The notes below the pieces were generated by a model, which saw nothing but the letters and a program-made list of their open reading frames with translations, made no database searches and had not been told where the DNA came from. From positions 1 to 24,098 of IMG/VR virus record IMGVR_UViG_3300001533_000688: a DNA stretch of 24,098 nt; one strand, 5' to 3'. This DNA is from a virus. Shown here piece after piece: positions 1 through 23,573 of the stretch (its first letter is position 1; every line of letters starts with the position of its first letter). The position numbers and the translations under genes are program-made.

Positions 1-60
1 TTTAACTTCAGTAACCGCCCCGTCGGCAATTTTAACTTCAGTAACCGCCCCGTCGGCAAT
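1..60. repeat. Two perfect tandem copies of a 30-bp unit, in frame
   Basis: Positions 1-30 and 31-60 are identical (tttaacttcagtaaccgccc followed by cgtcggcaat). Read on the minus strand each unit encodes IADGAVTEVK. Identity at every third position points to recent duplication or concerted exchange rather than old protein repeats. The window starts exactly on a unit boundary, so the true array is probably longer and may be where an assembly stopped. Confidence 0.95.
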
Positions 61-156
61 ATTAGCATAACCGCTGGGCTGCGGCCCATTTTGAGCGAAG
101 CAAGAGCTGGAAATTAAGCAAATTGTAATAAAAAAAAATAATTTATGGGCGTTCAT
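1..156 (-). CDS. Partial exported fibre-like protein with IADGAVTEVK repeats (3' end off window)
   Basis: The reading frame opens at an ATG at 156 and stays open for 52 codons to the window edge, so the C-terminus is missing. Residues 1-21 look like a Sec signal peptide: a short basic start (MNAHK), a hydrophobic core rich in F, I and L, and a likely cleavage after C-F-A at residue 21. The mature part begins QNGPQPSGYAN and enters two perfect copies of the decapeptide IADGAVTEVK (residues 33-52). D-G-A-V-T repeats are familiar from phage tail fibres and other trimeric beta-structured fibres, so a fibre or surface-stalk role is likely. The start overlaps the end of the upstream gene by 14 bp, which suggests translational coupling, with a G-rich stretch (GGGGGTGGT) just before the ATG. 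A fibre made with a signal peptide is unusual for a phage. The fibre class is inferred only from the repeat. Confidence 0.6.
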   Translation of the reverse strand, partial: MNAHKLFFFITICLISSSCFAQNGPQPSGYANIADGAVTEVKIADGAVTEVK

Positions 157-562
157 ACCACCCCCAAGCGCCGTCAACAACTACTGTTGCAGCACCAGAA
201 TTAGATATAATCGAACCATTGAATTCACCGGCCAGGCCTTGCCAGAGATATGTTTCGCCCTCAGAAACCAGTCTTCCAACTCTGTCTGTGCCGGTTGCAA
301 TGTTGTCTGAATGAGCTATTACAAAATCGCCCGACTTAGCCCGAAGCTCAAAGCCTAATGCGTTGACTGGCAAAAAAGCAGAAACCGCTACCGGGGCAAT
401 GTCGTCTAAAGTAATGGTGTCGGTTGCTACCGACTTGAAGCCAAAGTTGCATTGAATGGGACTGCTGTTAAGCGTCGGCCAGTTCGGTTGCGCTGCAAAA
501 GCAATGGCAACAGAAAGAATCAGTATCAAGGCCGAGAAAAAATATTTGTTTTTGTTTTTCAT
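143..562 (-). CDS. Small exported protein of unknown function (signal peptide)
   Basis: This is a 139-residue protein. I chose the ATG at 562 rather than the upstream in-frame ATG at 637 because 562 is preceded by GGAGG four bases away and begins a classical signal peptide: MKNKNK, then a hydrophobic stretch of about 16 residues, then A-F-A with likely cleavage near residue 23. The longer start would bury this and overlap the upstream gene by 25 bp. The mature part (about 115 residues) is rich in A, V, T, S and G and looks beta-rich, ending in WGWYERP. Residues 85-95 (SDNIATGTDRV) resemble SDNVSTGTEAV in the upstream neighbour, which hints that the two are paralogues. It lies 50 bp downstream of that neighbour, probably in the same transcript, and overlaps the fibre-like gene by 14 bp. 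I do not recognise the family. Export is well supported by sequence; a surface or virion role is only inferred. Confidence 0.7.
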   Translation of the reverse strand: MKNKNKYFFSALILILSVAIAFAAQPNWPTLNSSPIQCNFGFKSVATDTITLDDIAPVAVSAFLPVNALGFELRAKSGDFVIAHSDNIATGTDRVGRLVSEGETYLWQGLAGEFNGSIISNSGAATVVVDGAWGWYERP

Positions 563-612
563 TTCGCCTCCATAAAAACAAGGCGGGATTGCTCCCGCCG
601 ATTGTTGTTCGC

Positions 613-1095
613 TTATTCGGTGCCTTTTCTGCCCCATACTTCAATGATTACTTCCTGATCTCCGCTGGCTCCAATAGAAATATTAGGCGCTCTGAAAAAT
701 ACGCCCTCAAAGGCCTTTCCAGAAACTACAGCAGCACCTTCTGGAGTCAAAAGATGACTTGCGGTTGCGGTAGGAAGAACGATGCCTGAAGCGACAGATG
801 TTGAGTAGGGAACGTAGGTCAAGGAAGCTGTTCCGTGATTCTGAATCCTGAGCTTAACGGGATATTCTACTGTGTCAGGAAGCATGTAAACAGCCTCAGT
901 TCCAGTGGATACGTTATCGCTTGCAGTTATAGCTGCGGCAGCGTCAAGAGTAACAACTGTCTGTTTAAGCAGCTGGTCGAAAGTCTGCGCCTGGAAAGCC
1001 AGGCCTGCAGTTCTGACAGCCGGATCAGCAGCAAAAGAAGCAGACGCGAAAGAAAAGATTAAAAGAAAAAAAACAACACAGAATAACTTTTTCAT
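613..1095 (-). CDS. Small exported protein of unknown function (signal peptide)
   Basis: This 160-residue protein starts at an ATG preceded by a perfect AGGAGG four bases away. Residues 1-22 form a strong Sec signal peptide: MKK, a hydrophobic core (L, F, V, I), then S-F-A with cleavage before A-D-P. The mature domain of about 138 residues is rich in A, T, V, S and G with alternating hydrophobic positions, and ends with EVIIEVWGRKGTE. Residues 59-69 (SDNVSTGTEAV) match SDNIATGTDRV in the next gene downstream. It is the first gene after a promoter at 1125-1153, so it appears to head its own short operon of three exported proteins. I do not recognise the family. Its place after the virion genes and before a fibre-like gene suggests a surface-exposed or receptor-related role, but a host-modifying (moron) protein is equally possible. 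Confidence 0.75.
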   Translation of the reverse strand: MKKLFCVVFFLLIFSFASASFAADPAVRTAGLAFQAQTFDQLLKQTVVTLDAAAAITASDNVSTGTEAVYMLPDTVEYPVKLRIQNHGTASLTYVPYSTSVASGIVLPTATASHLLTPEGAAVVSGKAFEGVFFRAPNISIGASGDQEVIIEVWGRKGTE

Positions 1096-1124: not shown

Positions 1125-1153
1125 ATTATAACGACAAACAACCATTACTTCAA
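1125..1153 (-). promoter_or_regulatory. Sigma70-type promoter for the exported-protein cassette
   Basis: On the minus strand TTGAAG (1148-1153) and a perfect TATAAT (1125-1130) are separated by 17 bp, the ideal spacing. The start codon of the 160-aa exported protein lies 30 bp downstream of the -10 box with AGGAGG between. The -35 hexamer sits between two arms of an 8-bp inverted repeat (AACCATTA at 1140-1147, TAATGGTT at 1174-1181). Confidence 0.65.
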
Positions 1154-1159
1154 ATCTTA

Positions 1160-1175
1160 TATCAGTTTTTTGATA
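1160..1175. promoter_or_regulatory. Candidate operator TATCA-N6-TGATA upstream of the cassette promoter
   Basis: TATCAGTTTTTTGATA is a near-palindrome of 16 bp. It lies six bases upstream of the -35 box. A 16-bp relative, TATCAGAATTTTGATA, sits inside the terminase promoter at 23549-23564; they differ at two positions. Both are also preceded by TA and followed by A. This is a candidate site for a shared regulator; the regulator itself is not identified. Confidence 0.4.
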
Positions 1176-1179
1176 ATGG

Positions 1180-1265: not shown

Positions 1266-4200
1266 TTACCAGACTGGTTTTAACTTTTTTGTTTTTTGTT
1301 TTTGCCTTTCATCTTCTGTTGGCTTTGCCAGGTTTTCCAGAACATCAAGCGGCCACGTAACGAAGGTTCGAGGGAAGCCAGCGAAAACACCAAGAGTTGC
1401 CGCTGCTCTGATAAAGGAAGACATAGCCGCCATCGCTCCCTTGCCGCCGAAAACAGTTGACAACAAATGCTTTGCCCGTTTTTCTACGTCTTGAATTTGA
1501 TCGACAACCATCATTCCAGCTCCCCAGTGTTCCAAGATATCTTTGGGCGTAGTTCTGGTAAGTCTCATTGCTGGGTTTACAAATATGGTATCATTGGCCG
1601 CTCTGAATATGCTTTCGGCGAAAGAAGATTTCTTACCCCTTGATCTGCTGACTAACTGATCCGCAAGCGCCGAGGTCAGGGCTGTTGCTATCAGCGCAAA
1701 TGCAATATTTTTTGCTTTCTCTGATTTGCCTGTTTTAGTGTCTCTATATAATCTTTTCAGATGGTTGTTAAGCTTCTGCCACTGAGAAGAATAAACGCCG
1801 CCAAGATACGCGACAATATCTCTGCCGCCAGCAGCAGTTAGCTGAGTAAGCGTTGCGTCTGGCACGGTTCCGGTATTCTGAGTTTCCCGAATAGTTCTGC
1901 TTGCCAGTTCTCGCGCCCACTCTTCAGTCTTGCCGGTGTCTTTAGCGTATGCTTTTGCTGCTTCGTGAATGATAACCATGGTTACGCCGTCAAAGTGAGC
2001 AAAAGGCTTGATAAAAAGACTGGTTTTATCTGACTCAAGGTTGCCGCTATACAGAATATTCCCGGCATACCTTGAAAGTCTGCGCCACATATCAGGATCT
2101 TTATTCATTAATTCTTGAACAGCAATAGGTCTGTGATTTCTAAACTTACCAGACTCAGCGGCAATATATTTAAACGGTATATGGCTTGAAGTGTAAGCTA
2201 AAGAAGTATACTGAACCAACATAGAGCGAGGCGTGAGGAGTGCCGGCATTATTCGCCTGAGCCCTCTCATATACCATTTAGACAATTCTGTTGGCGGTTT
2301 ATTTCCGGCCTGAGACAAGCCTTCAACCAGAAGTTTGAGCCTGTTCCAGCGCTCTTTACCCAGAGACTTGATTATTTTCGGCTCCATGCCAGGCATATTT
2401 CTAAGCATTTCAATATTCCTGACAGTTTCAGCATGCCCAACGTAGACGGCTGTTTTGGTTACATGGTCTTTGAAAACATCTGTTATGTCGGTGACTCGGA
2501 ACGGGTGAGTATTGTCAACCGTCTGCTTAACAAAGCTGAACCCAGAAGGTGTGACGAGTCTTTCTTCTTGATCGTCCATAATATTATCGCGGGTTTCTTT
2601 GCCTTTATAAGCCCTGTCTTTTGAGACTGGAAGATATTTGTCACCCATTTTCCATTCAGGAACAAGAGGAAATGCTTTTATTCTCTGATGAACATCGTTT
2701 ATTGCAGGAAGAATATTTTTGTTTATATGGTCAGTAAGGCCTTTTAAAACAACTCTTTCTTGCGGCGTAAGTTCTGAGACAAGCTCATCAAGGAAGTTGT
2801 CTGTCACGTCGATAACGTCCATGTCTCGGTAGCGAGAAAGAACGACACCAGACACCGACAAAGATCTTCTGGCTCTTTCGAACTGAGCAAGCCCAGCAAG
2901 ATACAGTTTTTCGCCCCTGGTTAATGATATGGTTTTTCCAGCCCTATCTTTGAGACGAAGAACAACCTCTTTGCGCCAGTCATTAAACTCTCTGCTATCA
3001 GGACTGAGTTGAGCGCGTTCAATAACGTCTTGAAACTCCTGGTCGCCTCGCTGCATCATGAGATTTTGAACCGTATCGCCTTTAACGGTTTCATCGTAAA
3101 GAACTTTTTTGCCATCAGGCCCAAGCATTTCAGCAAAGGTAAGACCGTCCTCATTCATGTAGCTGGCCGGAGAAACAAGACCGAGAAAGCCAAATTGAGA
3201 GGTTTCTTCCAGCTCGGCTTTTGGTCGAAAGGTTCTTGCCATAAATCCGGGGTCAAATTTTTTGCCAGCAAGATGATTTTCAACGCTTTCGGCAATCTCT
3301 TTTACATCCCTGTATCTACCGCCAACAATGGCAGACTTAATGATTCGTTGTGCGTCAACAAGAAATTGAAGCCCGTCGTTTATTGTTTTCATTTCGTCAG
3401 CAGACAAACTTTCTGGCTTCTTGAGTCTTATTGCGTCGTCAAGATCTTGCACCAGCCACCACGGCACGCCCATATCTGGGTTTGACTCCTCAAAGCTTCT
3501 CAGGAAAAGCCTGGTTGTTTTAAGAGCTTGTCTGCCTTCTTCAATTTGAAGGTTCTTCAGCAAGCTCTGCCTGTCTTTGCCAACCACTTCATGAACTCTT
3601 TCGGTTTTCTTTAAAAGAGTTTTGAATCTGTCGATTTCTTTACGCCTGTAGTGTTTGTCGGCATATTGGATAGCCTTGTCAGATATTTCACCCAGGCGCT
3701 TCATGGTTTTGGCGTTTCTTGTTTGATCCATCAATGCGCCTCTGATTTCCACGGGCAGCACGGCTTTTATAAGATCTGATGTGATTTTTCTGCCTTTTTC
3801 CATGCACTGAGTTTTTGCTAAAGCGTTTTCCGATTTAAAGAAGAGGCTTTCCGCTTCCTTGAGCTTTGGCATAAACTCTTTCTCTGCCTTTTTCGCAGCA
3901 AGCCTGGTATCTCGTTCCGACGCCTTGAATCTTTCTTTTAGCGCCTCAGACGGCCTGACGCTTTTTATTTCATCAGCAAGCCTGGTTTGTTTGGTGATTT
4001 TTCTAATACTCTTTTTTATGTCGCCAACAGCACCGCGCCTGTCAGCAAGCACTCTCTGAATATCAGAGAACATTGATCGCAAGGTTTTATGGACCGATTT
4101 ACCGAACTGCTTAACCATATTTCGCGCCCAGTCAGCAAACTTGGTTGCACCCTTTTTAAACCAATCATAACCAGCCTTGGCTGCTTTCGCGCCATACTTA

Positions 4201-7200
4201 GCGGCCAGATATTCAACCGAATACAGTTCAACACCTTTGTCGGTTGCTCTTTGCTCAACAGCCTTGAATAAGTCGCCGTAAGCTTTTTTGGCTGCAGGCA
4301 ATTCATCAGGAAGCAGGTAAGGATAATCGCCATCTTCGAGTCCGAGGCTTCGGGCCGCTTCCCATACTTGGTGGTCGGCAATATTTACAAGGTAATCATT
4401 TTCTGCTCCAGCATTCTTCATATAGTCTACAAGGTAAGACTCGAACGCCCTGGCGGTCATTTCGGTTGTTTCGCTCCAGTAGTCTTTTGATCGAAGCTTG
4501 TCGAGTGACTTAGACCTTTTAAGCATCTTTGTGTCGCGAATTATGGTTTGCTTAACAGCATTGAATGCGTCAGCCATTTCCTGTCTGATCTGGCCGCGTA
4601 TTGTTCCCGTTTCTGTTATGAATTCTGCTCCAGCTTTTTTGCCGAAGTAGTTATCAAGAGCATGCCACCATTCGTGAGCAAGAGAGCCGGCGCCCTTTGT
4701 TTTTGTGAGATTTATAACAACGTGATCGCGCTCATAGTGAGCTATCGCAGCACGCTTGCCGCCGATTCCTCTTGCGCCAAATGCTAAGCCCAGCTCGCCG
4801 TTAAGAGAAAGAGCAGCCGGTGGAACTCCAATTATTTCAGCCAGATCCAGAAGAGCGTCAAATGCTTCGTTTAAATCTTCCTGTCTCTTGGTTCCTTCAA
4901 CCCAATTTCCAAACTGAACGCCGCGAAGCTTGAAGGTTTCAGCAAAAGTTTCCGGGGTAATATCTTTGCCGCCCCTGCGGTCTTTGCCTATTCGTGGCCG
5001 GTTAACTTCTCTTCTCTCAAACGGAATATTTCTAATTCCATTATATTGAGCGAGAAGGGTTTCGTAGTTGTTTGCTCTATATTCTCTAGCCTCGGTTGAT
5101 GTGCCGAAAAACTTCAGCTCTACGGTTTCAGACCTGATTTTTTTGCCAATAAAAAAGCGGCCTTTATTTTCGCCAATCAGCTTTTTAAAGATATGGAATT
5201 CTGTTTTTTTGGCTTTAGATGGAGCGGCTTTTGTTTTTTCGTATGCAGCTTTAAACTTATCAACAACATCTTTTACGGTTTTTCCGAACATAACCCGTCT
5301 GTCTTCATAGGACATTTCAAAGCCGCCGCTGCCCCTTGGCTCTATTGACCAGAGTATTTTCGGGGAATCAAGCTTCACGCCATCAACCATAGAGAACATG
5401 GCGGATCTTAGCCGAAGATTCTTAAGCGATGCGTCGTGACCAACTTCATTGTAAAGCATCGCAAGGGCTTCTGCGTCAGAAAGCCTTTTTGATTCCTCAG
5501 AGGGTGACGGAGTAAGCGCCTTGTCAGCAGAAAGACTCATTGCTGCGCTTATTTTATCTTTCAGCGCCTGTTGTGCTTCTGGGCTTTCAAGAAGCTTAAG
5601 ACTTAGCATTCTCGCCTGCTCAAGCTCTCTGACGTAAGATATAAGCTTATAGCCCTTTTGGGGCCTGCTGGGTAGAAGTTCTCTTAAGGCTCTGACGACT
5701 CCAACAGCAACTGGGTCGGTTCCTTCCTCGATCATCTTCTGGTAATTCGGAGCAGGCCATGACTTAGAAAGCGGCACGCTTGCGGGGTCGAGCTTTTGCG
5801 CCTTCTCGATGTCTACTTTGTATTGAGCGGCCAAGTGCTTCTTGGCACCATGAAGAGCTTCGCCAAAGTCTTCTATTTTTTCGGTTGGTTTTACCGTAGC
5901 TTGCGCTGGCACCGATGCTTCAGCGGCCTTCTTCGCCTTCCACTCTTTACCGAAGGCAATATCAGCAAGATGGTTTTCACCTACCTTTGGGATTCTATAA
6001 TTTGTTTTCTTAGTCTCCGGTATTCCTTCGGCCACAGGAGCTGCTTTAACTTCTCTACTACTTGGGGGCGGACTGGCGAAAAGGTCGCCTGTTTTCTTTT
6101 CATATTTATCTTCCATCCTTTCTACTACTGCTTGGAATAATTCTGCCCTGGTTGGGATAGTCGGCACCTTGTTTCCTGGCAGTAATTTTTCTTTTGGACT
6201 GCCAAGCTTGAACACCGAATCATTGTAGGTTGAAAAAAGCTCTGTCATTTTTGCGCCAGATCTTTTGTACTTATCAAGCTGTCTTAAAATGTCTTTGGCA
6301 AGAGCCGAAACTCCATCATCCCACAACTGGCCTTGCTGGAAATAACCCTCGATTGTCGTTCCTGATTTGCGAAGGCCCGAGATCAGTTCTGCCGCTTCGG
6401 CCATTGCAGATCCAATGTCAAGATCATACAAGTCATTTGTTTTCGCCATCGAATTGATCAAGGCAATTTTAGCGCCCACGTTTATATATGTAGCCAAAAT
6501 TGCTTTAATGTTTGGGTTTTCTTTTTCGGCAAATATTTCAGCAAGTCTTTCGTCGCCATACGCAGCAGAAAAAACAGCACGTTCAAGCCTAGCGGCGCCC
6601 TCTTTGCTTAAATTATTTTCTGAATCAAAAAATCTTCCTTCATCATTTTTACTTGTTACTTCAGTGAAAAAAGCGGAAATAAAACGATTGTTTGCTGCAG
6701 AAAAAAGATCATCATCCTGAAGCAATCTCGCGTTATTAACGACAGCAAAAGCGTCAGATCCTGCATCTTCTCCAGCTGTCATGCCAAGTTTATCCTGCCT
6801 GTTTAGGTCAGACGCAAGTCTACGCAGTTGTTTATCGTCAAGCTTATCTTGAATAACTCTTACTAAAACAGGTCTGCCTGAAGGCACAGAAGGCAAATTA
6901 AATCTCTTGTCTGTTGTTGTTATGGCTCTCTGGTATTCGCCCATGGTCTTGTCTTTATAGCCTTTTCTAATGGCCATGGTTCTGCCATTGCCGGATATTA
7001 CTACAAACCTAATCATTCCATCTATCATAACTGGAGCAACGACAGGAGTTCCGACGTCTGCATTTACAAAGTCTGTTACAAGCTTATCAACTATTGGATT
7101 TTGCGCGATGCTTTCGATCTGCTCTACGCTTGCCAGTTTTTTTCTTTTTCTGGGTTGATATTGATCTGGAAACCTTGGATCATCCGAAGTGATAAGCTCA

Positions 7201-10200
7201 TTTTCTGGAACTGCTAAATATTTAACCTTTAGTTTTTTTCCGGATGGAGCATAAGCTTCCGCTTCTAAGCCATACTGTATTTTATCAGTAATGTCTTTAG
7301 GGTCGACCACTTTAGCCTTTTCTGCTTCAGGTTTTTTTTCTGTAAAAGTTTCTTGCTTTTTCCCTTCATATGTCAAAACGGCATCTTTTGGAATCTCGCC
7401 AGGTTTGCCCATCTGGCCAATGTATAGTTTTCCGTTAAAATCGTTGGCAAGAACTTTTAAATAGGCTTGGTCGCTGTCTCGATATACTCCAGACGAAACA
7501 ACCTTTCCATTTTGAACTATTGCAAAATAGTTTGCTTTTGGATCGGGTTTTTTCTCCGGTGTCGGCTTTGTTTCTGCCGAGCCAACAAATTTGTCATAAG
7601 CCGACTTTGCTTCTTCCGGCGTTTTGAATGGAATGCCGTCCATAAATCCGCCAAGTTCGGTTTCTGCTGATTTTTCAATATTAACCAACTGAGAGGTTAC
7701 GCCAGTTTGCCTGAAAACATCTTTACCCATAAATGCTTGACCAAGGCTCTTAGACGTGCCGCCAACAGAATCAAGCCATTCTCGAAACTCAACTGAGTCT
7801 TTGTCGTTAGCAAACGCGAAGTGATTGCCCATGATGGCCGATAGCCTTCCACCTGGCTTCAAAAGATCATAGGCTTTTCTGACGTGTTTAATGTCTCGGT
7901 TCTTGCTGAACGGCGGGTTCATAATAATGCGGTCGAATCTTTCTTCTGTCTCGAACGATTCAAAGTCTGCGCCGACAACATCATGACCCTTGAGTTTTAA
8001 GATGTTCTGAAGATCTTCAAGGGGCTCAACGGTCTGAACAACTGCGCCAGACTGAATAGCCTTAACAGCGTCAGCAAGATCGCCTTTACCTGCCGAGGGC
8101 TCAAGAACGGTCATGCCTGGCTTAATATCAAGCTCGGTTGCTATTCTTTCGGCCAGAGCCGGTGGAGTTGGGAAAAAGTCAAAGCCTTCAAATTTCCTGC
8201 CAACCAGTTCTCTTTCGGCGGCTTTTAACGGGTCTGCTGCTTTTCTTCCTTCGGCAAAGCCTTTATATTCAATCAAGGCTTCAGCAAGGTCTGAGTCAGA
8301 CTTAATGCCGGCATCAACTAGCTTTTTATATTCGGTAATGGTGTCTAGTATTCTTTCGAGCTGATGCGGAACCTTGATTTTCTTTTTGCCAAGCCTGGCT
8401 TTTATCTGCAGGATCTTTTCAATCTGGTCATCGTTAAGAGAGATATTTCTATCTCTGCTGCGGTCGCCAATCTTTTCGAGATACTTGGCGGCAAGCTTCA
8501 TATCGGGAAGATTTTCAAGATCGCCTGCAGCCCAGTTAAACCAGTTTCCATGTGGGTATGGTCTTTGAAATACTGCGCCTTCTTTAATAACCTTCTCTGT
8601 CGCATCCATGCCAATTGTCTGACCATAAGATAAGTCGTTTTTATCTGCGTATTTTATCTTGGCTTGCCTTATTTGATTAATAAAAACCTGAAGATCTGGT
8701 CTTGATCTTACGTTTTTCAGGTAATTAACTTCGCCTTTCTCCATGCCTTCTGCGATATTAAGCATGGTCTTTGCGAACGCTTCTCTTTCTGCTGCGCCAG
8801 CCTCGGCCACCGCCGCCGTTCTTGCGCGTCTGGGCGTATTTGTCTGCCTGTCTTTCCCAAGATCTTCTTGGGCTTTCTTAAGAAGGCTCTCGGCTGATGA
8901 TTTAAGATTAGAGGCATTGCGCATAAGGTCCGCGGTTTCTGGGGTTACGGTAATGCCGGGTTTAATTGGCGTTGCCTTTGCAGGAGCCACTTCGCCGGTA
9001 TTGAGCGCCACGGCCTTATCTTCTGCAGTCTGCTTGCTGGTATGCCATGAATATTGCTTGCCTTCGGGGTCAAGAACTCTGAAGCCGCCCTGAAATGATT
9101 CTACTTTATAGACAGGCTTGTCGGTCACAGCAGGCACGCCTTTAATCTCTTCCATTTTCGGAATGAGAATGTCAAGCTTCTGCTCGATCTTGCCTGCCTC
9201 ACGCATAGCGCCAGGCGTATCTTTATCAGCAAGCCTCTCTTTTCTAAGCTGAAGTTTTTCGACCTCACTGGTGATTAGTCCGCGCTCTGTTCTGGTCATT
9301 TCTGCAGCGGTTTTATTTTCCAGTGAACCAAGCAATCCTTGCCAAGGTGTAATTTTCTTTTCAAGCTCAGCGGCTCGATCGGTGTCAGATACGATCATGG
9401 GCTGCTTTTCTTCTGCAGGAGCAGGCTCAGCAACCGGCTTAATCGCTGGTCTTTTTGTTGCGGCTTTTTTCGCAGCACGTCTGCGCCCCTTGACTTTTGC
9501 AAGCTCAGCCTTAAGCTCTTCTTTTACGGCATTCTTAATATCTTCTGGATACTTTTCAAACTCTTCCAAAGCAGCCCGGCCTGATTCACTGTCGAGATCA
9601 AGAGAGGGGTCGATCGCATATTGCATTATAGAAGCAGCTCGGTTGTAGTCGATCTCTCTTTGTTCGGCGCGAGCCTGCTCGACACCGCTAAAACCAGTCT
9701 GCAGTCTTTCAACGAGGCCGCCAAGTCTTTGTCTTTCGCCGGGAATTGCAATTGCTTCTGCCAGGGTTCTGTCTTGAAATTCTTGGCTTGCTGGAAGCTC
9801 AATAGATGGCTGTGGTGGAATCGTTCTGTCTGGCGGCATATACCTAATCGGCAACTGCTTCATTGTTTCGCCAGTCAGTGCTTTCTGGGGCGAGACAGTC
9901 TCTCTGACTTTTCTTATATCAATTGCTGTTTGCTGTGCCGCTGCAGTCTGTGCGAATTTTTCAAATTCATTGCCTCTTTCTGCGACATCCTGAGCAAACA
10001 TGCGAATATTCATTTTTACATAGTCTTGCTTAGATGATGATTCCGCCTTCTTAAGAGCGCTCATTACGCCAGCTAAACCTTCGGATTCTTTGACGTTTCT
10101 AAGAGCGCTTGTTATTGCAGAAATACTTTCTTTGTCCAGCGCCATTCCTCTAAGTGCCGCTTCCTGCTTCATTTGCTCCAAGAATGATTCCGCCTGCTTA

Positions 10201-11258
10201 ACCAGACTGGCCGCACCCAGCGCACCCGTAACGGTTCCGAAAATAAAAGCACTGCCAGCTCCCTGAGCCCCAGCAATAGCAGTATCAAGAAACCTGTAAC
10301 CATCTTCCTCGGGTATTCCGATCTGTTTCAGCACGTCGTTTAATGCCGACGCAGTTCCAAGAGCTGCGCCAGACTTCAGCCCCTGAGCAAGAGCAGACTT
10401 GCCCACAAACATCACTTCACCAAGCCTACCGGCTTGATGAGCTGCGACTACGGCTGACTTAGCCTGCTCAGGAGTCATGCCAGAATTCATAAGATAGCCA
10501 AAGGCTGCGGTTGTTATTAGCGCCTGCCCACCACCTACAGCCAGCGCTGTCTCTGGCTTAAACTTGCCGGTTTTTTCTTCGATGTGATCTGAAACCCTTG
10601 GAATAGATCCAGAGGCGATATAGCCACCCTTGGCAGCCAGTGCGCCAGCTTTTCCGGCAGCAGCCTTGCCAGCTGCGCCAACGGCACCAAAAGCCCCAAG
10701 CGCCACGGCGAGCTCTGTAGCAAACTCAACCCCGCGACCAGCAACCCCGGCAACATCAATGTCTGAGCCAGTGAAAACCGACTCAGGAGCCATAGCCTCT
10801 ATATCTCGTCCAGTCTGGCCTAGTCTTTCGCCATATTCAACATGTTCTTGCATTCTTTCGGTAGTCGTAGGTGATCCGAATCGAGCCGATAAATCACGCC
10901 CCACGGTTCCGGCTGTTCTCATCCCGAAGCCAGCAATTCTTGGCAGTAGTCCGCCAATTTGAGCTGCACCGCGACCTATAGCGCCAGCCGCATGAGCAGC
11001 ACCAACAAACGGTCTCTGCCAGAGAGGTATATCATCTTTCATCTGATCCAGTGCACCACCAGTACCAAAATCTCTGAGCGTTGCCGCGTCCGCTTCTGTT
11101 TGCGCCTGAATGTTTTCGCGCTGCTGCGCCCATGTTTGCAAGTATTTGAGATTATCAACCAATTCTTGCTTAATCTCGTCGGGAGCGGTCTTAAAGTTAT
11201 CTGATTTTAAATACTCATCAGCTTTTTTGAATAGCTCGTTAAATTGTTCTGGCTTCAT
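1266..11258 (-). CDS. Giant phage polyvalent protein: DNA methyltransferase, ParB-like and zincin domains
   Basis: This is a 3,330-residue multidomain protein, probably carried in the capsid and ejected with the DNA. The N-terminus (about 85-360) has several Gly/Ala-rich hydrophobic stretches, as in membrane-active ejection proteins, followed by helical and K/P/A-rich linkers to about 620. A methyltransferase domain covers about 1030-1190: the cofactor motif VLEPSAGKGD is near 1050-1060 and the catalytic NPPF is at 1114-1117, typical of N6-adenine enzymes. A DdrB/ParB-like domain with SGNGRTMAIRKG follows near 1420-1430. An LPD1-type region (RGVQFGNWV, then HEWWHALDN near 2193-2201) is a zincin-like metallopeptidase with intact HExxH. 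The remainder is helical, with hydrophobic patches near 3010, 3190 and 3290. The ATG follows the upstream gene by four bases, with a weak AAGGA 12 bases away. Domain roles follow the known phage polyvalent-protein families; ejection and protection of incoming DNA or attack on host proteins are inferred. Confidence 0.85.
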   Translation of the reverse strand: MKPEQFNELFKKADEYLKSDNFKTAPDEIKQELVDNLKYLQTWAQQRENIQAQTEADAATLRDFGTGGALDQMKDDIPLWQRPFVGAAHAAGAIGRGAAQIGGLLPRIAGFGMRTAGTVGRDLSARFGSPTTTERMQEHVEYGERLGQTGRDIEAMAPESVFTGSDIDVAGVAGRGVEFATELAVALGAFGAVGAAGKAAAGKAGALAAKGGYIASGSIPRVSDHIEEKTGKFKPETALAVGGGQALITTAAFGYLMNSGMTPEQAKSAVVAAHQAGRLGEVMFVGKSALAQGLKSGAALGTASALNDVLKQIGIPEEDGYRFLDTAIAGAQGAGSAFIFGTVTGALGAASLVKQAESFLEQMKQEAALRGMALDKESISAITSALRNVKESEGLAGVMSALKKAESSSKQDYVKMNIRMFAQDVAERGNEFEKFAQTAAAQQTAIDIRKVRETVSPQKALTGETMKQLPIRYMPPDRTIPPQPSIELPASQEFQDRTLAEAIAIPGERQRLGGLVERLQTGFSGVEQARAEQREIDYNRAASIMQYAIDPSLDLDSESGRAALEEFEKYPEDIKNAVKEELKAELAKVKGRRRAAKKAATKRPAIKPVAEPAPAEEKQPMIVSDTDRAAELEKKITPWQGLLGSLENKTAAEMTRTERGLITSEVEKLQLRKERLADKDTPGAMREAGKIEQKLDILIPKMEEIKGVPAVTDKPVYKVESFQGGFRVLDPEGKQYSWHTSKQTAEDKAVALNTGEVAPAKATPIKPGITVTPETADLMRNASNLKSSAESLLKKAQEDLGKDRQTNTPRRARTAAVAEAGAAEREAFAKTMLNIAEGMEKGEVNYLKNVRSRPDLQVFINQIRQAKIKYADKNDLSYGQTIGMDATEKVIKEGAVFQRPYPHGNWFNWAAGDLENLPDMKLAAKYLEKIGDRSRDRNISLNDDQIEKILQIKARLGKKKIKVPHQLERILDTITEYKKLVDAGIKSDSDLAEALIEYKGFAEGRKAADPLKAAERELVGRKFEGFDFFPTPPALAERIATELDIKPGMTVLEPSAGKGDLADAVKAIQSGAVVQTVEPLEDLQNILKLKGHDVVGADFESFETEERFDRIIMNPPFSKNRDIKHVRKAYDLLKPGGRLSAIMGNHFAFANDKDSVEFREWLDSVGGTSKSLGQAFMGKDVFRQTGVTSQLVNIEKSAETELGGFMDGIPFKTPEEAKSAYDKFVGSAETKPTPEKKPDPKANYFAIVQNGKVVSSGVYRDSDQAYLKVLANDFNGKLYIGQMGKPGEIPKDAVLTYEGKKQETFTEKKPEAEKAKVVDPKDITDKIQYGLEAEAYAPSGKKLKVKYLAVPENELITSDDPRFPDQYQPRKRKKLASVEQIESIAQNPIVDKLVTDFVNADVGTPVVAPVMIDGMIRFVVISGNGRTMAIRKGYKDKTMGEYQRAITTTDKRFNLPSVPSGRPVLVRVIQDKLDDKQLRRLASDLNRQDKLGMTAGEDAGSDAFAVVNNARLLQDDDLFSAANNRFISAFFTEVTSKNDEGRFFDSENNLSKEGAARLERAVFSAAYGDERLAEIFAEKENPNIKAILATYINVGAKIALINSMAKTNDLYDLDIGSAMAEAAELISGLRKSGTTIEGYFQQGQLWDDGVSALAKDILRQLDKYKRSGAKMTELFSTYNDSVFKLGSPKEKLLPGNKVPTIPTRAELFQAVVERMEDKYEKKTGDLFASPPPSSREVKAAPVAEGIPETKKTNYRIPKVGENHLADIAFGKEWKAKKAAEASVPAQATVKPTEKIEDFGEALHGAKKHLAAQYKVDIEKAQKLDPASVPLSKSWPAPNYQKMIEEGTDPVAVGVVRALRELLPSRPQKGYKLISYVRELEQARMLSLKLLESPEAQQALKDKISAAMSLSADKALTPSPSEESKRLSDAEALAMLYNEVGHDASLKNLRLRSAMFSMVDGVKLDSPKILWSIEPRGSGGFEMSYEDRRVMFGKTVKDVVDKFKAAYEKTKAAPSKAKKTEFHIFKKLIGENKGRFFIGKKIRSETVELKFFGTSTEAREYRANNYETLLAQYNGIRNIPFERREVNRPRIGKDRRGGKDITPETFAETFKLRGVQFGNWVEGTKRQEDLNEAFDALLDLAEIIGVPPAALSLNGELGLAFGARGIGGKRAAIAHYERDHVVINLTKTKGAGSLAHEWWHALDNYFGKKAGAEFITETGTIRGQIRQEMADAFNAVKQTIIRDTKMLKRSKSLDKLRSKDYWSETTEMTARAFESYLVDYMKNAGAENDYLVNIADHQVWEAARSLGLEDGDYPYLLPDELPAAKKAYGDLFKAVEQRATDKGVELYSVEYLAAKYGAKAAKAGYDWFKKGATKFADWARNMVKQFGKSVHKTLRSMFSDIQRVLADRRGAVGDIKKSIRKITKQTRLADEIKSVRPSEALKERFKASERDTRLAAKKAEKEFMPKLKEAESLFFKSENALAKTQCMEKGRKITSDLIKAVLPVEIRGALMDQTRNAKTMKRLGEISDKAIQYADKHYRRKEIDRFKTLLKKTERVHEVVGKDRQSLLKNLQIEEGRQALKTTRLFLRSFEESNPDMGVPWWLVQDLDDAIRLKKPESLSADEMKTINDGLQFLVDAQRIIKSAIVGGRYRDVKEIAESVENHLAGKKFDPGFMARTFRPKAELEETSQFGFLGLVSPASYMNEDGLTFAEMLGPDGKKVLYDETVKGDTVQNLMMQRGDQEFQDVIERAQLSPDSREFNDWRKEVVLRLKDRAGKTISLTRGEKLYLAGLAQFERARRSLSVSGVVLSRYRDMDVIDVTDNFLDELVSELTPQERVVLKGLTDHINKNILPAINDVHQRIKAFPLVPEWKMGDKYLPVSKDRAYKGKETRDNIMDDQEERLVTPSGFSFVKQTVDNTHPFRVTDITDVFKDHVTKTAVYVGHAETVRNIEMLRNMPGMEPKIIKSLGKERWNRLKLLVEGLSQAGNKPPTELSKWYMRGLRRIMPALLTPRSMLVQYTSLAYTSSHIPFKYIAAESGKFRNHRPIAVQELMNKDPDMWRRLSRYAGNILYSGNLESDKTSLFIKPFAHFDGVTMVIIHEAAKAYAKDTGKTEEWARELASRTIRETQNTGTVPDATLTQLTAAGGRDIVAYLGGVYSSQWQKLNNHLKRLYRDTKTGKSEKAKNIAFALIATALTSALADQLVSRSRGKKSSFAESIFRAANDTIFVNPAMRLTRTTPKDILEHWGAGMMVVDQIQDVEKRAKHLLSTVFGGKGAMAAMSSFIRAAATLGVFAGFPRTFVTWPLDVLENLAKPTEDERQKQKTKKLKPVW

Positions 11259-15226: not shown

Positions 15227-17239
15227 TTATACCTTCCAGGGGTCGCGGGGCAGGAATTCCACCGGCGGATCGTAAGCGTTTTTAAACTCTCTTATTTTGT
15301 CTGAATATTTTGCAGCATAAACCTGGCTGAGTGGGAACAGGTCTTTTTGTGCTGGCATACTGTAGAACTCTGACAAAGATAAAATCCAAATCGCGTCAAT
15401 GAAGTGCGCCATGTGAGCCGGCAGGTCTGGTTGATCTGAATTTTTTGCCATTGGCGCTGGAGAGTAAACGCCTTTTGCGCTGCATTCGTAGGCGCTGTTT
15501 CTGAATACGGTGATTTCTATTGTCTTGTCTCTTGTGACTGGAGTCGACAGGGTGACTGTTACGCCATTTGTCTCGGTAAAGGTAGATGGTGCCTGCGAAA
15601 GCCCGTCAAGTCTTACTGCTATTGCATTAGTGCCGACTTCGTATGACACAGGAAGAGTTACGGAATCATTACCGGCCAGTATGGTGAAAGTTCTTTTGAA
15701 TGCGTTGAATGACGAAAAGGGAGCGGCAGGATAATAAACAATCTCGCACTCTTGATCTCTCGCCAGTGGTCCGGCAATCTCTATTGCATTTGGGTTTGTG
15801 ATCGACCACTTGTCCTGATTCTGATAGAAGCCGTTCAGAAAAACATCAACAAATGCCTGATCTTCTGGGATTGCAAGAGGAAGCGCGATTGTTGTTGTTC
15901 CGGCCGGAAGCGCTACTATCTGCGATGCTCTATCGGCAGCAGAAACCCACACAATCTCAACAACTTGATCTCTGGTTTTTGGCCCGATAAGCTCAATGGA
16001 TCTACCGCCGATAATTTCCCACTGGTCTTTATTCTGCCAGACTCCGTTTAAATAGAGTTCAACATTGTTTTTGTTTGTTGAAATTGGAACGTCAATAAAG
16101 ATTTCAGTCTCATTGGCCAGAAGCGTTGAGGTTCTGGAGAAGCGGCAAGGCGCACGTTTAACTGAATCCGGGATTGGGTAGAGCTTGATCTTTGCATCTT
16201 CGATGAACCAGTGAGTCGGAAGCTCTGCGGTAACCTCTCGCCAGGCCAGAGAGCTTGACGGAATTTCGCCTATCTTCATCTGGTCTGTATAGCCTGAGAA
16301 GTAGTCATCGAGATAGCCAGCGGTTGTCCTGACCAGTTTTTTGTTTTTCCAGAAAACATCGTCTACCCTGATGGCATTGGACGGTATATTGAATGCCGCA
16401 GTGTAAACATTAAAAGCGCCCATCTGGACGGATGTTTCTTTGCATTTGGTGTCGGCGGCAAACTTTCTGCAGGATCGGTTCAGGCTATTAACTATTTCCG
16501 ATTCTCTCCAGGGAATAGTTCCGTCTTGAAGTCTGATATTTTCAACCACCTTATTTTTGAGAGAAAGAAGGCTGTCTCCAGAAACCAGATCTGCCTCTGT
16601 CGGCATCGGCGCGGATGAGTCGGAAGAAAAGGCTGCGCCGTATTCTTCGAGCCTGGTCTTGTAGAGAGCCACGTATTGCTCTGCCAGGCTTGGGTCTCGT
16701 TGCTGGCCTTCTCTGCTATAACATTCGACCAGCGCCCAAAGCCATAGGGCATCGTGAAAATGCTGCAGGTGAGAAGGCAGGTCAGGCACATCGGAATCGC
16801 CAGTCATGTCTGCGGGCGTGATTACGCATCTGATTTTAGCGTTTCCCACAGAAAAGCTTAACGGAATAGGGTAAATCCGAATAAGGCCGCCGTCAGTGAC
16901 CCAATGCGTTGGCGTTCCCGTTTCTGTTCTCCAATCCGTATCTCTGGGCTGATAACCAGACAACACAGAATCAAGCTCTTGAACAGAAGTTTGGCCTAGT
17001 CGCTTGCCAAGCCACATCACGCAATCTATACTTGCAATATTGTCCGGGAATGTAAAAAGGCCATCTGGAGCGCTTGACGCGGCAAGATTAAGCGTGGTCT
17101 CTTTGCATCTTGTGTCAGCAGAAAACCTTCTACAGCCTCGATTAATGTTGTCTGTAATCTCAGCCACAGGCCAATACTTCGGCGTAGACCGCTCTTTAAG
17201 CTTCTCGATTACCTTGCTCTTGAGCTCAAGCAGATTCAT
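15227..17239 (-). CDS. Head-tail adaptor, tandem duplicated, with three inserted beta-repeats
   Basis: This 670-residue protein has two copies of an adaptor-like fold (P22 gp4/phage adaptor type). Copy 1 is residues 1-205: LLELKSKVIEKL, NRGCRRFSADTRCKET, GTPTHWVTDGGLIRIYPIP, PDLPSHLQHFHDALWLWALV. Copy 2 is residues 224-360 plus 590-655, with matching LLSLKNKVVENI, NRSCRKFAADTKCKET, ELPTHWFIEDAKIKLYPIP and PDLPAHMAHFIDAIWILSLS. Between YPIP and PDLP of copy 2 sit about 220 extra residues holding three repeats (about 375-433, 447-504, 521-580) with VELYLNGVWQNKDQW, VDVFLNGFYQNQDKW and AVRLDGLSQAPSTF at equivalent places and a common TRDQ/ARDQ/TRDK. The adaptor ring joins the portal to the tail; the repeats probably project outward. 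The ATG has AAGGAG seven bases ahead and overlaps the stop of a 14-codon ORF. Role from family; the insertion is directly visible. Confidence 0.75.
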   Translation of the reverse strand: MNLLELKSKVIEKLKERSTPKYWPVAEITDNINRGCRRFSADTRCKETTLNLAASSAPDGLFTFPDNIASIDCVMWLGKRLGQTSVQELDSVLSGYQPRDTDWRTETGTPTHWVTDGGLIRIYPIPLSFSVGNAKIRCVITPADMTGDSDVPDLPSHLQHFHDALWLWALVECYSREGQQRDPSLAEQYVALYKTRLEEYGAAFSSDSSAPMPTEADLVSGDSLLSLKNKVVENIRLQDGTIPWRESEIVNSLNRSCRKFAADTKCKETSVQMGAFNVYTAAFNIPSNAIRVDDVFWKNKKLVRTTAGYLDDYFSGYTDQMKIGEIPSSSLAWREVTAELPTHWFIEDAKIKLYPIPDSVKRAPCRFSRTSTLLANETEIFIDVPISTNKNNVELYLNGVWQNKDQWEIIGGRSIELIGPKTRDQVVEIVWVSAADRASQIVALPAGTTTIALPLAIPEDQAFVDVFLNGFYQNQDKWSITNPNAIEIAGPLARDQECEIVYYPAAPFSSFNAFKRTFTILAGNDSVTLPVSYEVGTNAIAVRLDGLSQAPSTFTETNGVTVTLSTPVTRDKTIEITVFRNSAYECSAKGVYSPAPMAKNSDQPDLPAHMAHFIDAIWILSLSEFYSMPAQKDLFPLSQVYAAKYSDKIREFKNAYDPPVEFLPRDPWKV

Positions 17240-19491: not shown

Positions 19492-19824
19492 CTACATTCT
19501 TAAATTTGAATTGATTACCCGATCCGATTCTGATCTGTCAGCTTCTGCAAGTTTTTCGCTGGACTCGTTTGCTCTTGCTATTGCTTCTTTGATTTCAGAC
19601 TCCGTATCGGTAATCCATTTACATTCCAAGTGTAAACCAAAGTAATAGCTATTGTCAATTTTCTGATAATCAGGTGAAGTTTTGCACAAGGTTTTCCACA
19701 GGACGTCTCTTCTTCGCGTTAAAATGGGAAGTAGAAACCTCCCAACTGTCTCGGCATCCAGTCCTGCCTTTATGGCTTCTAGTAGTTCTTTTTTGAGTGA
19801 ATAATTATTGTCCACGGTTGCCAC
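19492..19824 (-). CDS. Small hypothetical protein between portal and scaffold
   Basis: This 110-residue frame opens at a GTG at 19824 and overlaps the portal end by 20 bp. A second in-frame GTG at 19815 has AAAGG eight bases ahead and is the better start, giving 107 residues (VDNNYSLKKE...). It is mostly helical and charged, with aromatic and cysteine residues in the middle (WKTLCKTSPDYQKIDNSYYF, then LHLECKWITD) and a helical E/K/A-rich C-terminal third ending VINSNLRM. No known motif is visible. Conserved position between portal and scaffold suggests a head-assembly helper, but the family is not recognised. Confidence 0.6.
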   Translation of the reverse strand: MATVDNNYSLKKELLEAIKAGLDAETVGRFLLPILTRRRDVLWKTLCKTSPDYQKIDNSYYFGLHLECKWITDTESEIKEAIARANESSEKLAEADRSESDRVINSNLRM

Positions 19825-21697
19825 CTTTCGCAGCTGCTTCGATTTGCTCCGGTGTCATTTGCGCCAAAGTCTGCTCGGCCTGCGCTTGCTGCTGCATCAT
19901 CATTTCCTGCTGCTGCATCATATGCTGCTGAATCTCTTCTGCTGTCGGCGCATACTTACTAGAGTCTTTATAGCCCATTTGTTCGACCAGTGTTTTGACG
20001 GCTTCCACCGCCTTACCAGTCATTATTTCAGGAGGAACGCCCATTTGCAACATGGCCGGGTAAATCTGCCCTATCAGCAACATCATGTTTTGTGTCGCCT
20101 CCTGTCGCTGTCCTGCGCCCACTCCCGCCGCAATGTCCAGGTCAAATTCGCCGGCAAGATCTTCCGGCCTGACCACAAGTCCCTGCGACTCGGTGAGCCT
20201 CACCACCTGCTCATTGTCGATATACCTGCTGTTCATTTCGACGAGAATTTCAAAAAGATCAAGCGCACCCGTTTCTGCAAATATCCTGGCAATCATTTCC
20301 AGGCGCTGAGTCGCAGCCCCCATGATCGCCGTGATACCGGTAGCGGTTTTATTCAGGCTCTTTGAATCCATGCCTTGGTTATACTTGGTAATGCCCGTTC
20401 GGTTTTCTTTTACCTGGTCAAGGTATTCAACCATCGGCATTGCCATCGGGCTTGTCGGTGACTCTGGCATATAAGATACAAATGCTCCGACCGGCTGACC
20501 TTCACGCGACTTGGCCCTGATGAATCTCTTGTTGTCCCTGAGATCGTCCGGGTTAATTGCGTCCTGGTCAACTATCGCCTGCCTGTCATTGTTGTTTGCA
20601 ATGTTGACGATAATCTGACGCATGAGGGCGACCTTGATGTCTTGCAACTCACCAATGAGATCGTCAAAAGTTCTGCCGCCCAATTCGTATTGATGCGGGT
20701 ATGGTGACAGCACGGCAAAATGCGGCCTGCCCATTTCGTTTTCTTCGACTCGAATAATCTGATCGCCTATAACGGTTATAATCAGACTCTCGCTGATATT
20801 GTCGTCATTGATGTCGTACTTGCCGAAACACTCCTGCACCCAGTATTGCTGGCGGCTCGGATCTAGGCCAGACGCTCCGTCATGCGTAAAAGAACTGGGA
20901 TCTTGATATTGTCTCAGCTCGTCCTTGTCAAAATCAGAATACTTTGCGCCTGCAATCTTGTTTTCGTCCACCTTGTCGAAGATGCCGGACTTGACCATAA
21001 CTTCTATTTCGCTCCTGGTCATTAGCTTTTTATGCATACAGAAATTTAGATCCCTGATATCGCTTGCGTCTGGAAGCCAGGCAAACTCTGACACGGGAAC
21101 ATTTTCTAGGATCGGCTGGTTCTTTGTGATTTTCTGTTCTCTTACGGTTACAGAATACGTGCCGTCGGGAAGCTCTTCAGCCTTTACAAATTTAACTTGG
21201 TCAGCCTGGGTGTCCAGATCAAGAAGTTCTTCTGGAGTCATCTGAACAACTGTTTCCACCTCTTTTTCTATTCGCTCCCACCTGATTTTGGTTATGCCGT
21301 GACCGAGCTGCAGAGCGTCCAGAATCCAGCGATAGAATTTCAGGAAGCCTTTATTTTTTTTCTGGATCTGCCAGTTGCATAGAACTTGCATGGCTTCTGC
21401 GTGCTGAGTATCGTCCGGTGTCCTTGGCGTAATCGAAACAACGTCCTGGCCGCCGAAAAAGATTTTCATAAGCGATGGCACCGCCCAATAGACAGTGTCG
21501 GCCACGTCTGACATCGTAAAGTTGCTGCGCTCTGAGAGTTTCGGAAAAATGCCTTTATAATAATCTTTGTCTGACATAAAGCGCTGCAATCTTCTGAGAG
21601 CGGCAGGCTCAATGTGCTCCTCGTAATAAAGCTCTGCGGCCTCAATGTCTGAGACCACATAGCCCATCAGTTTATCTTTGGTTTCCTGGTTTATCAT
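19805..21697 (-). CDS. Portal protein, P22-like
   Basis: The protein has about 630 residues. I prefer the ATG at 21697, which overlaps the terminase TGA by one base (TGATG) and has AGGAG seven bases ahead; a GTG at 21700 would add one residue. The N-terminus is helical (ALRRLQRFMSDKDYYKGIFP), followed by VADTVYWAVPSLMKIFFGGQ and the LQLGHGITKIRW segment (about 129-141) that resembles the portal wing/stem pattern of P22-type portals. A central region has GRTFDDLIGELQDIKVALMR and NRTGITKYNQGMDSKSLNKT, both common in this portal class. The last 60 residues are rich in Q and M (QQHMMQQQEMMMQQQAQAEQ) and probably form a helical barrel, like the long C-terminal barrel of P22 portals. Twelve copies should form the DNA gate that terminase docks on. 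Confidence 0.85.
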   Translation of the reverse strand: MINQETKDKLMGYVVSDIEAAELYYEEHIEPAALRRLQRFMSDKDYYKGIFPKLSERSNFTMSDVADTVYWAVPSLMKIFFGGQDVVSITPRTPDDTQHAEAMQVLCNWQIQKKNKGFLKFYRWILDALQLGHGITKIRWERIEKEVETVVQMTPEELLDLDTQADQVKFVKAEELPDGTYSVTVREQKITKNQPILENVPVSEFAWLPDASDIRDLNFCMHKKLMTRSEIEVMVKSGIFDKVDENKIAGAKYSDFDKDELRQYQDPSSFTHDGASGLDPSRQQYWVQECFGKYDINDDNISESLIITVIGDQIIRVEENEMGRPHFAVLSPYPHQYELGGRTFDDLIGELQDIKVALMRQIIVNIANNNDRQAIVDQDAINPDDLRDNKRFIRAKSREGQPVGAFVSYMPESPTSPMAMPMVEYLDQVKENRTGITKYNQGMDSKSLNKTATGITAIMGAATQRLEMIARIFAETGALDLFEILVEMNSRYIDNEQVVRLTESQGLVVRPEDLAGEFDLDIAAGVGAGQRQEATQNMMLLIGQIYPAMLQMGVPPEIMTGKAVEAVKTLVEQMGYKDSSKYAPTAEEIQQHMMQQQEMMMQQQAQAEQTLAQMTPEQIEAAAKGGNRGQ

Positions 21698-23544: not shown

Positions 23545-23573
23545 AATATATCAGAATTTTGATAACAAAGCAA
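23545..23573 (-). promoter_or_regulatory. Sigma70-type promoter for the terminase-led structural operon
   Basis: On the minus strand TTGCTT (23568-23573) and TATATT (23545-23550) are 17 bp apart. The terS ATG is 20 bp beyond the -10 box, with GAGGTGA in between, so the leader is very short. No other convincing promoter is seen before 1153, so this may drive the whole structural run. Confidence 0.6.
23549..23564. promoter_or_regulatory. Candidate operator in the terminase promoter spacer
   Basis: TATCAGAATTTTGATA is a 16-bp palindrome with one mismatched pair. It occupies the spacer of the terS promoter and touches the -10 box, where a bound repressor would block polymerase. A two-mismatch relative lies at 1160-1175, beside the other strong promoter. 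The binding protein is unknown. Confidence 0.45.

Follow-up and report, generated by a model that had tools for sequence, protein, structure and literature searches.

Can the tail fibres of a short-tailed phage be exported from the cytoplasm before they become part of a virion? The question is raised by three genes (A, B and C, together called the cassette) at the far end of a 24,098-base linear IMG/VR record, the whole of which was analysed and is referred to below as the window; the contig end cuts through gene C. Every structural gene of the window lies on the minus strand, in the order small and large terminase, SU10-type portal, SU10-type capsid, SU10 adaptor, a nozzle-like gene and a gene for a 3330-aa polyvalent protein, which is DarB-like and presumably ejected. 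Pfam matches were obtained for the SU10-type portal, capsid and adaptor proteins (PF23899, 2e-138; PF17236, 1.7e-37; and PF24175, 4.1e-31, respectively). The window is a fragment of an SU10-like short-tailed phage, and the portal of the nearest isolated phages shows ~26–30% identity to its portal. The adaptor gene (15227-17239, minus strand) encodes 670 aa with two tandem SU10_adaptor copies and about three small beta-type repeats, compared to 399 aa in the relative G001 described below. The adaptor inserts were suspected to be T7-fibre N-terminal domains, and no support for this was found on checking.

Three Genes with Export Leaders

Three consecutive leader-bearing frames had been predicted to follow the polyvalent gene, and this was confirmed: A, B and C (Table 1) were all scored as having Sec/SPI leaders (3/3), with a positive n-region, a hydrophobic core and a cleavage site. 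Scoring was done with a home-made von Heijne-type matrix combined with hydrophobicity and charge rules, and not with SignalP; the matrix was tested on PhoA, MalE, OmpA and PelB. The expectation that the leaders end in A-x-A was correct for B (AFA), whereas A (S-F-A) and C (C-F-A) end in combinations that are allowed but not strict.

Strong Shine-Dalgarno sites were found just upstream of A and B. Neither the first 60 codons of A nor the visible part of C contain any other ATG, GTG or TTG start, and the sole alternative start in B is a TTG inside its leader; the leaders of A, B and C must therefore be translated. B and C overlap by 14 bp, their homologues B′ and C′ in G001 overlap by 4 bp, and C′ and the following gene D′ are 2 bases apart. 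This overlap or near-contact suggests translational coupling within the cassette.

No match for A, B or the A homologue A″ was found in the family libraries, and structure prediction gave poor models (mean pLDDT of 43 for A from a single sequence and 36 for B from two sequences). Profile comparison of the A and B families gave 13.9% probability over 23 columns, and the two are therefore not put forward as related by descent. The C fragment contains IADGAVTEVK repeats and showed a weak match (0.0012) to the tail fibre family phrog_892; its counterparts by position in two relatives, C′ and C″, are leader-bearing fibres.

Table 1. Features of the cassette and its surroundings in the window, and palindrome copies in related loci.
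Feature	Position	Strand	Basis
Gene A, 160 aa, leader and beta-rich-looking mature part, unknown family	613..1095	-	leader score, SD AGGAGG, homologue A″
Leader of A, predicted cleavage after residue 22 (SFA/AD)	1030..1095	-	leader score
Gene B, 139 aa, leader and mature part of unknown family	143..562	-	leader score, homologue B′
Leader of B, predicted cleavage after residue 23 (AFA/AQ)	494..562	-	leader score
Gene C, first 52 codons of tail-fibre-like gene, cut by contig end	1..156	-	phrog_892, start at 156
Leader of C, predicted cleavage after residue 21 (CFA/QN)	94..156	-	leader score
Polyvalent gene (DarB-like), 3330 aa, precedes cassette	1266..11258	-	PF18799, PF18763, PF18796
Sigma-70-like site TTGAAG-N17-TATAAT before A	1125..1153	-	10/12 matches, consensus match only
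Terminator-like hairpin between A and B	582..599	-	sequence pattern
Palindrome ATTATCA-AAAAAC-TGATA upstream of cassette, candidate shared operator	1160..1177	-	copies at small terminase and in relatives
Second palindrome copy, just upstream of small terminase gene	23549..23566	-	same motif as cassette copy
Third window copy of palindrome	19653-19670	-	
Palindrome copies in relatives	L002 9927-9944; L003 11612-11629, 7493-7510		
Palindrome copies in relatives	L086 8046, 12104; L087 7340, 6079; L091 1354		

Relatives of the Cassette and Occurrence of Leaders Elsewhere

A search of IMG/VR with B gave one relative, IMGVR_UViG_3300035102_000132 (G001; 37.4 kb; loci L002-L004), in which B′ directly follows the polyvalent gene and is itself followed by C′ (a 347-aa fibre), D′ (810 aa), E′ (166 aa, holin-like), a 66-aa protein and a DUF5675 protein. 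Leaders were found in all of B′, C′, D′ and E′, and D′ showed fibre repeats and a weak match to an EPS depolymerase family. A genome scan with a portal alignment revealed a second relative, contig MWCR01000018.1 (L101, L110), in which the end of the polyvalent gene is followed by A″ (166 aa) and then by the fibre C″ (666 aa to the contig end), both leader-bearing. C′ and C″ matched tail-fibre PHROGs, C″ with tail-fibre family matches down to 9e-22, and Pfam gave no match in C′, D′ or C″. The search for the same trio in other phages that had been proposed thus yielded two similar leader-bearing runs, although gene A is absent from G001. The proposed link to surface attachment held as well: the third-position homologues are tail-fibre-like, and one is weakly depolymerase-like.

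No further cassette was found by IMG/VR scans with A, an A/A″ alignment, the polyvalent protein and its methyltransferase-like segment, and the B alignment yielded no hit in a genome scan. Among 50,697 isolated-phage records, A, B′ and D′ had no match and C′ had one weak match. The cassette is known from three phages, all of them without an isolate, and C is incomplete. MWCR01000018.1 is filed in a Parcubacteria MAG; its G+C content (0.41–0.43 versus 0.49–0.50 for the bin) and its tetranucleotide profile are both at odds with that bin, so that it is probably misbinned.

B and B′ were 57% identical in the mature part and 21% in the leader; for A and A″ the values were 38% and 30%, which is a small contrast. 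The core proteins of the window and G001 were only ~25–31% identical, compared to 53–57% for B. A 436-aa methyltransferase-like segment of the polyvalent protein (window 7656-8963, minus strand; L002:3677-4984) showed 64% identity, while capsid and portal showed 27–31%, which suggests that this segment may have been exchanged or is under strong constraint. The correlation of 0.90 between the tetranucleotide profiles of the window and G001 suggests that the two phages have related hosts.

Sec leaders were found in all nine cassette genes of the three phages (A, B, C; B′, C′, D′, E′; A″, C″). None of the 13 other window genes and 1/28 other G001 ORFs (L003, L004) were leader-positive. In eight isolated phages with SU10-like portals 5/285 ORFs were positive, with no recognised structural or fibre gene among them, and in fibre loci 22/561. 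All eight fibre or neighbouring ORFs of P-SSP2, NATL2A-133, S-TIP37, crAss-like cr271_1 and HTVC106P, which match C″, scored negative. Compared to a rate near 3%, nine out of nine is far beyond chance, with the reservation that related genes do not count as independent samples. In agreement with the original prediction, the leaders have the appearance of genuine export signals, and they recur in 6/6 cassette genes of the two other phages; it is very probable that the cassette proteins leave the cytoplasm at all.

Homologues without a hydrophobic leader had been named as a finding that would point to ordinary tail proteins. The close homologues were shown to keep the leader, whereas generic fibre relatives, namely the other IMG/VR relatives of C′, lack it in 78 of 79 cases. 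The latter figure would fit a view in which the cassette encodes ordinary leaderless tail proteins, the leaders being a start-codon artefact or chance hydrophobicity. We consider this extremely improbable, as A and the visible part of C offer no other start codon, A and B are preceded by strong Shine-Dalgarno sites, and every cassette gene of two other phages has a leader.

The one leader-bearing relative of C′ (L022:9242-10864) is a 540-aa fibre-like protein with a strong leader, encoded beside a leaderless 805-aa fibre or depolymerase-like gene; as the phage is unrelated, this gives an independent example of a putative fibre with a Sec leader. Leader-bearing genes of 196 and 248 aa (L106:15097-15684 and 20285-21028) were also seen between the capsid and adaptor genes, in the fibre or decoration region, of an SU10-like prophage found by the portal scan in an Aestuariivirga MAG. 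Besides, Bacteroidetes-type phages were found to encode leader-bearing proteins of ~630 aa (L066:15006-16904, L045:15053-16951 and L044:12385-14274). The L066 protein has a cohesin domain and, at its C-terminus, a sorting domain for type IX secretion (PF18962), and these proteins are apparently made for the type IX secretion of the host. Relatives of them, also leader-bearing, are present in the isolated Flavobacterium phage immuto (L118:3449-6344).

Fibre Slot, Expression and Possible Routes

The cassette fills a T7-like fibre slot, between the ejection protein and the lysis genes, and in P-SSP2 and S-TIP37 the fibre likewise comes after the internal virion protein. In SU10, the fibre genes gp12, gp13 and gp16 are located between the adaptor gene gp11 and the nozzle gene gp17, and the long fibre docks on the adaptor via its N-terminus (PMC9509320). 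In the window and in G001, by comparison, the nozzle gene sits directly next to the adaptor gene, leaving no fibre gene in between. Tests of the other structural genes gave no convincing fibre or spike match, the sole one (phrog_8469, on the capsid protein) being at noise level. C, C′, C″ and D′ have shaft repeats or a family match and a place in the late module, as expected for tail fibres, but all four carry an export signal, which tail fibres should not have.

The first shaft motif of the cassette fibres was found at residue 40–45 (leader included), within about 20–26 residues after the leader, versus residue 56–1538 (median 309) in 41 controls. There appears to be no room for the usual N-terminal docking domain, although a short docking peptide is possible. 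Since the shaft starts right after the leader, the leader could itself replace the docking domain, as an uncleaved hydrophobic N-terminal anchor that fixes the fibres in the virion or a membrane. We regard such anchoring as unlikely: leaders of this kind are also found on the small non-fibre proteins A and B, small residues occupy positions −3 and −1, and the B leader has diverged while the mature part has been kept, a pattern typical of signal peptides rather than of a docking interface.

The cassette had been predicted to have its own promoter, separate from the structural operon. A sigma-70-like site does precede A, but the palindrome upstream of A is also found before the small terminase gene, so that regulation is probably shared rather than separate. 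All three phages have the palindrome (TTATCA-N6-TGATA, in its longer form ATTATCA-N6-TGATAAT; chance expectation <0.1 per source at up to three mismatches) upstream of the cassette, with a TATAAT on its downstream side; in the window phage, G001, L086, L087 and L091 a copy lies immediately before the small terminase gene. The motif may serve packaging or act as an operator or late-promoter element, and a shared element of one of the latter two kinds would be the simplest reading. The presence of the palindrome at both the cassette and the small terminase gene makes it probable that the cassette is expressed late, together with the virion genes. No palindrome was seen near the G001 repressor gene. 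Several of these phages contain a further copy inside a short gene after the portal, which may simply reflect a conserved DYQxIDN peptide.

The promoter-like site before A and the terminator-like hairpin after it (consensus matches only), together with the lack of A in G001, would be expected if A, perhaps with the whole run, were a moron: a gene active in the lysogen under its own promoter, which changes the host surface and has nothing to do with fibres. This is quite unlikely, considering that a third phage has A″ in the corresponding position, beside a fibre gene with a leader, that the upstream palindrome is common to the terminase operon, and that no foreign composition was detected (G+C of 0.464 for the cassette versus 0.464 for the rest of the window).

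The original prediction had taken the cassette proteins to be something other than virion parts. This was not supported: the genes lie where fibre genes normally do, no further fibre gene could be recognised, and the palindrome is shared with the terminase operon. For these reasons the proteins may be the fibres of the virion itself, delivered to it by way of export. Receptor masking, exclusion, adhesion and assembly outside the cell would all look alike at the level of sequence. Our preferred explanation, to which we give somewhat less than an even chance, is a receptor-binding fibre locus whose fibres and companions are exported by Sec and joined to virions at lysis. Late in infection, A, B and the fibre C (C′, C″ and D′ in the relatives) would be made, pass through SecYEG and be cut by signal peptidase I, after which they would fold and trimerise in the periplasm. 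Lysis would then bring the exported fibres together with virions coming out of the cytoplasm, to which they would be joined, A and B being putative exported companions (cap, dock or chaperone). What the sequence itself offers in favour of this explanation is that the genes and all their homologues have leaders, that they lie in the fibre slot, that there is similarity to fibres and depolymerases, and that the palindrome is shared. The virions of tailed phages are assembled in the cytoplasm, which counts against it, as does the apparent lack of room for a docking domain, given that the SU10 long fibre docks by its N-terminus, and receptor binding might instead be performed by the inserted beta domains of the adaptor or by genes outside the contigs.

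Alternatively, the proteins could be exported and never become virion parts, masking or stripping the receptor against superinfecting phages and against re-adsorption of progeny to the producer cell or to debris. The leaders, the apparent absence of the usual docking domain and the weak depolymerase match of D′ agree with such a role. Precedents are the clearly exported surface proteins with type IX sorting domains encoded by phages of Bacteroidetes and, functionally, the T5 lipoprotein Llp (PMC9586334). However, G001, most of whose genome is in hand, would then be left without a recognised virion fibre. The palindrome shared with the terminase gene also suggests late rather than early expression, and exclusion proteins are usually early. 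Free exported proteins are in our opinion a real possibility, although not the probable outcome.

That there exists a lineage of short-tailed phages whose Sec-exported periplasmic fibres are fitted to virions outside the cytoplasm at lysis is possible but doubtful. If true, it would represent a two-compartment assembly route, new for tailed phages in the literature searched, and the leader-bearing fibre-region genes in L022 and L106 would mean that the export route arose more than once. Either the rule of cytoplasm-only assembly is broken for tailed phages, or dedicated exported fibre or depolymerase proteins alter the surface of the infected cell. Both outcomes are relevant to how progeny are kept from sticking to debris, to competition for receptors and to annotation, as signal-peptide fibre-like genes in metagenomes are easily taken for bacterial adhesins.

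Comparison with Known Systems

The coat proteins of filamentous phages are virion proteins that travel through Sec, and these phages assemble at the membrane. The cassette proteins resemble them as candidate Sec-routed virion proteins, but the window phage differs in having the capsid, portal and terminase of a tailed phage.

Llp of T5 blocks FhuA against superinfection and against useless adsorption to debris (PMC9586334). It resembles the possible role of A and B in being a small exported phage protein that acts at the envelope on a receptor. In contrast to Llp, A and B have no lipobox, are tied to fibre genes and are probably late; reading the leaders of A, B, A″ and B′ directly revealed no cysteine at the predicted +1 position.

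The mosaic adhesive trimer (MAT) fibres of Bdellovibrio are likewise phage-fibre-like proteins with a signal peptide and are displayed outside the cell (PMC10769870), but they are encoded by a bacterium and serve predation. MAT fibres have a beta-rich domain of ~130 aa after the signal peptide, and many end in S74 (PMC10769870); neither was seen in the cassette.

The layout had been put forward as one without a described counterpart, and none was found in the literature searched. This literature, which was open-access only, also contained no report of Sec leaders on tailed-phage fibres. The closest likeness is to SU10-, T7- and P-SSP2-like podovirus fibres, which share the repeats, the families and the place between ejection protein and lysis genes. 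The known fibres of this kind that were checked are leaderless and begin with an N-terminal virion-docking region, whereas in the cassette the shaft starts shortly behind a Sec leader, and the fibre gene comes after small companion genes that have leaders of their own. The cassette is best described as a tail-fibre locus with export signals: the fibre locus is of a known kind, and the export signals are the new element.
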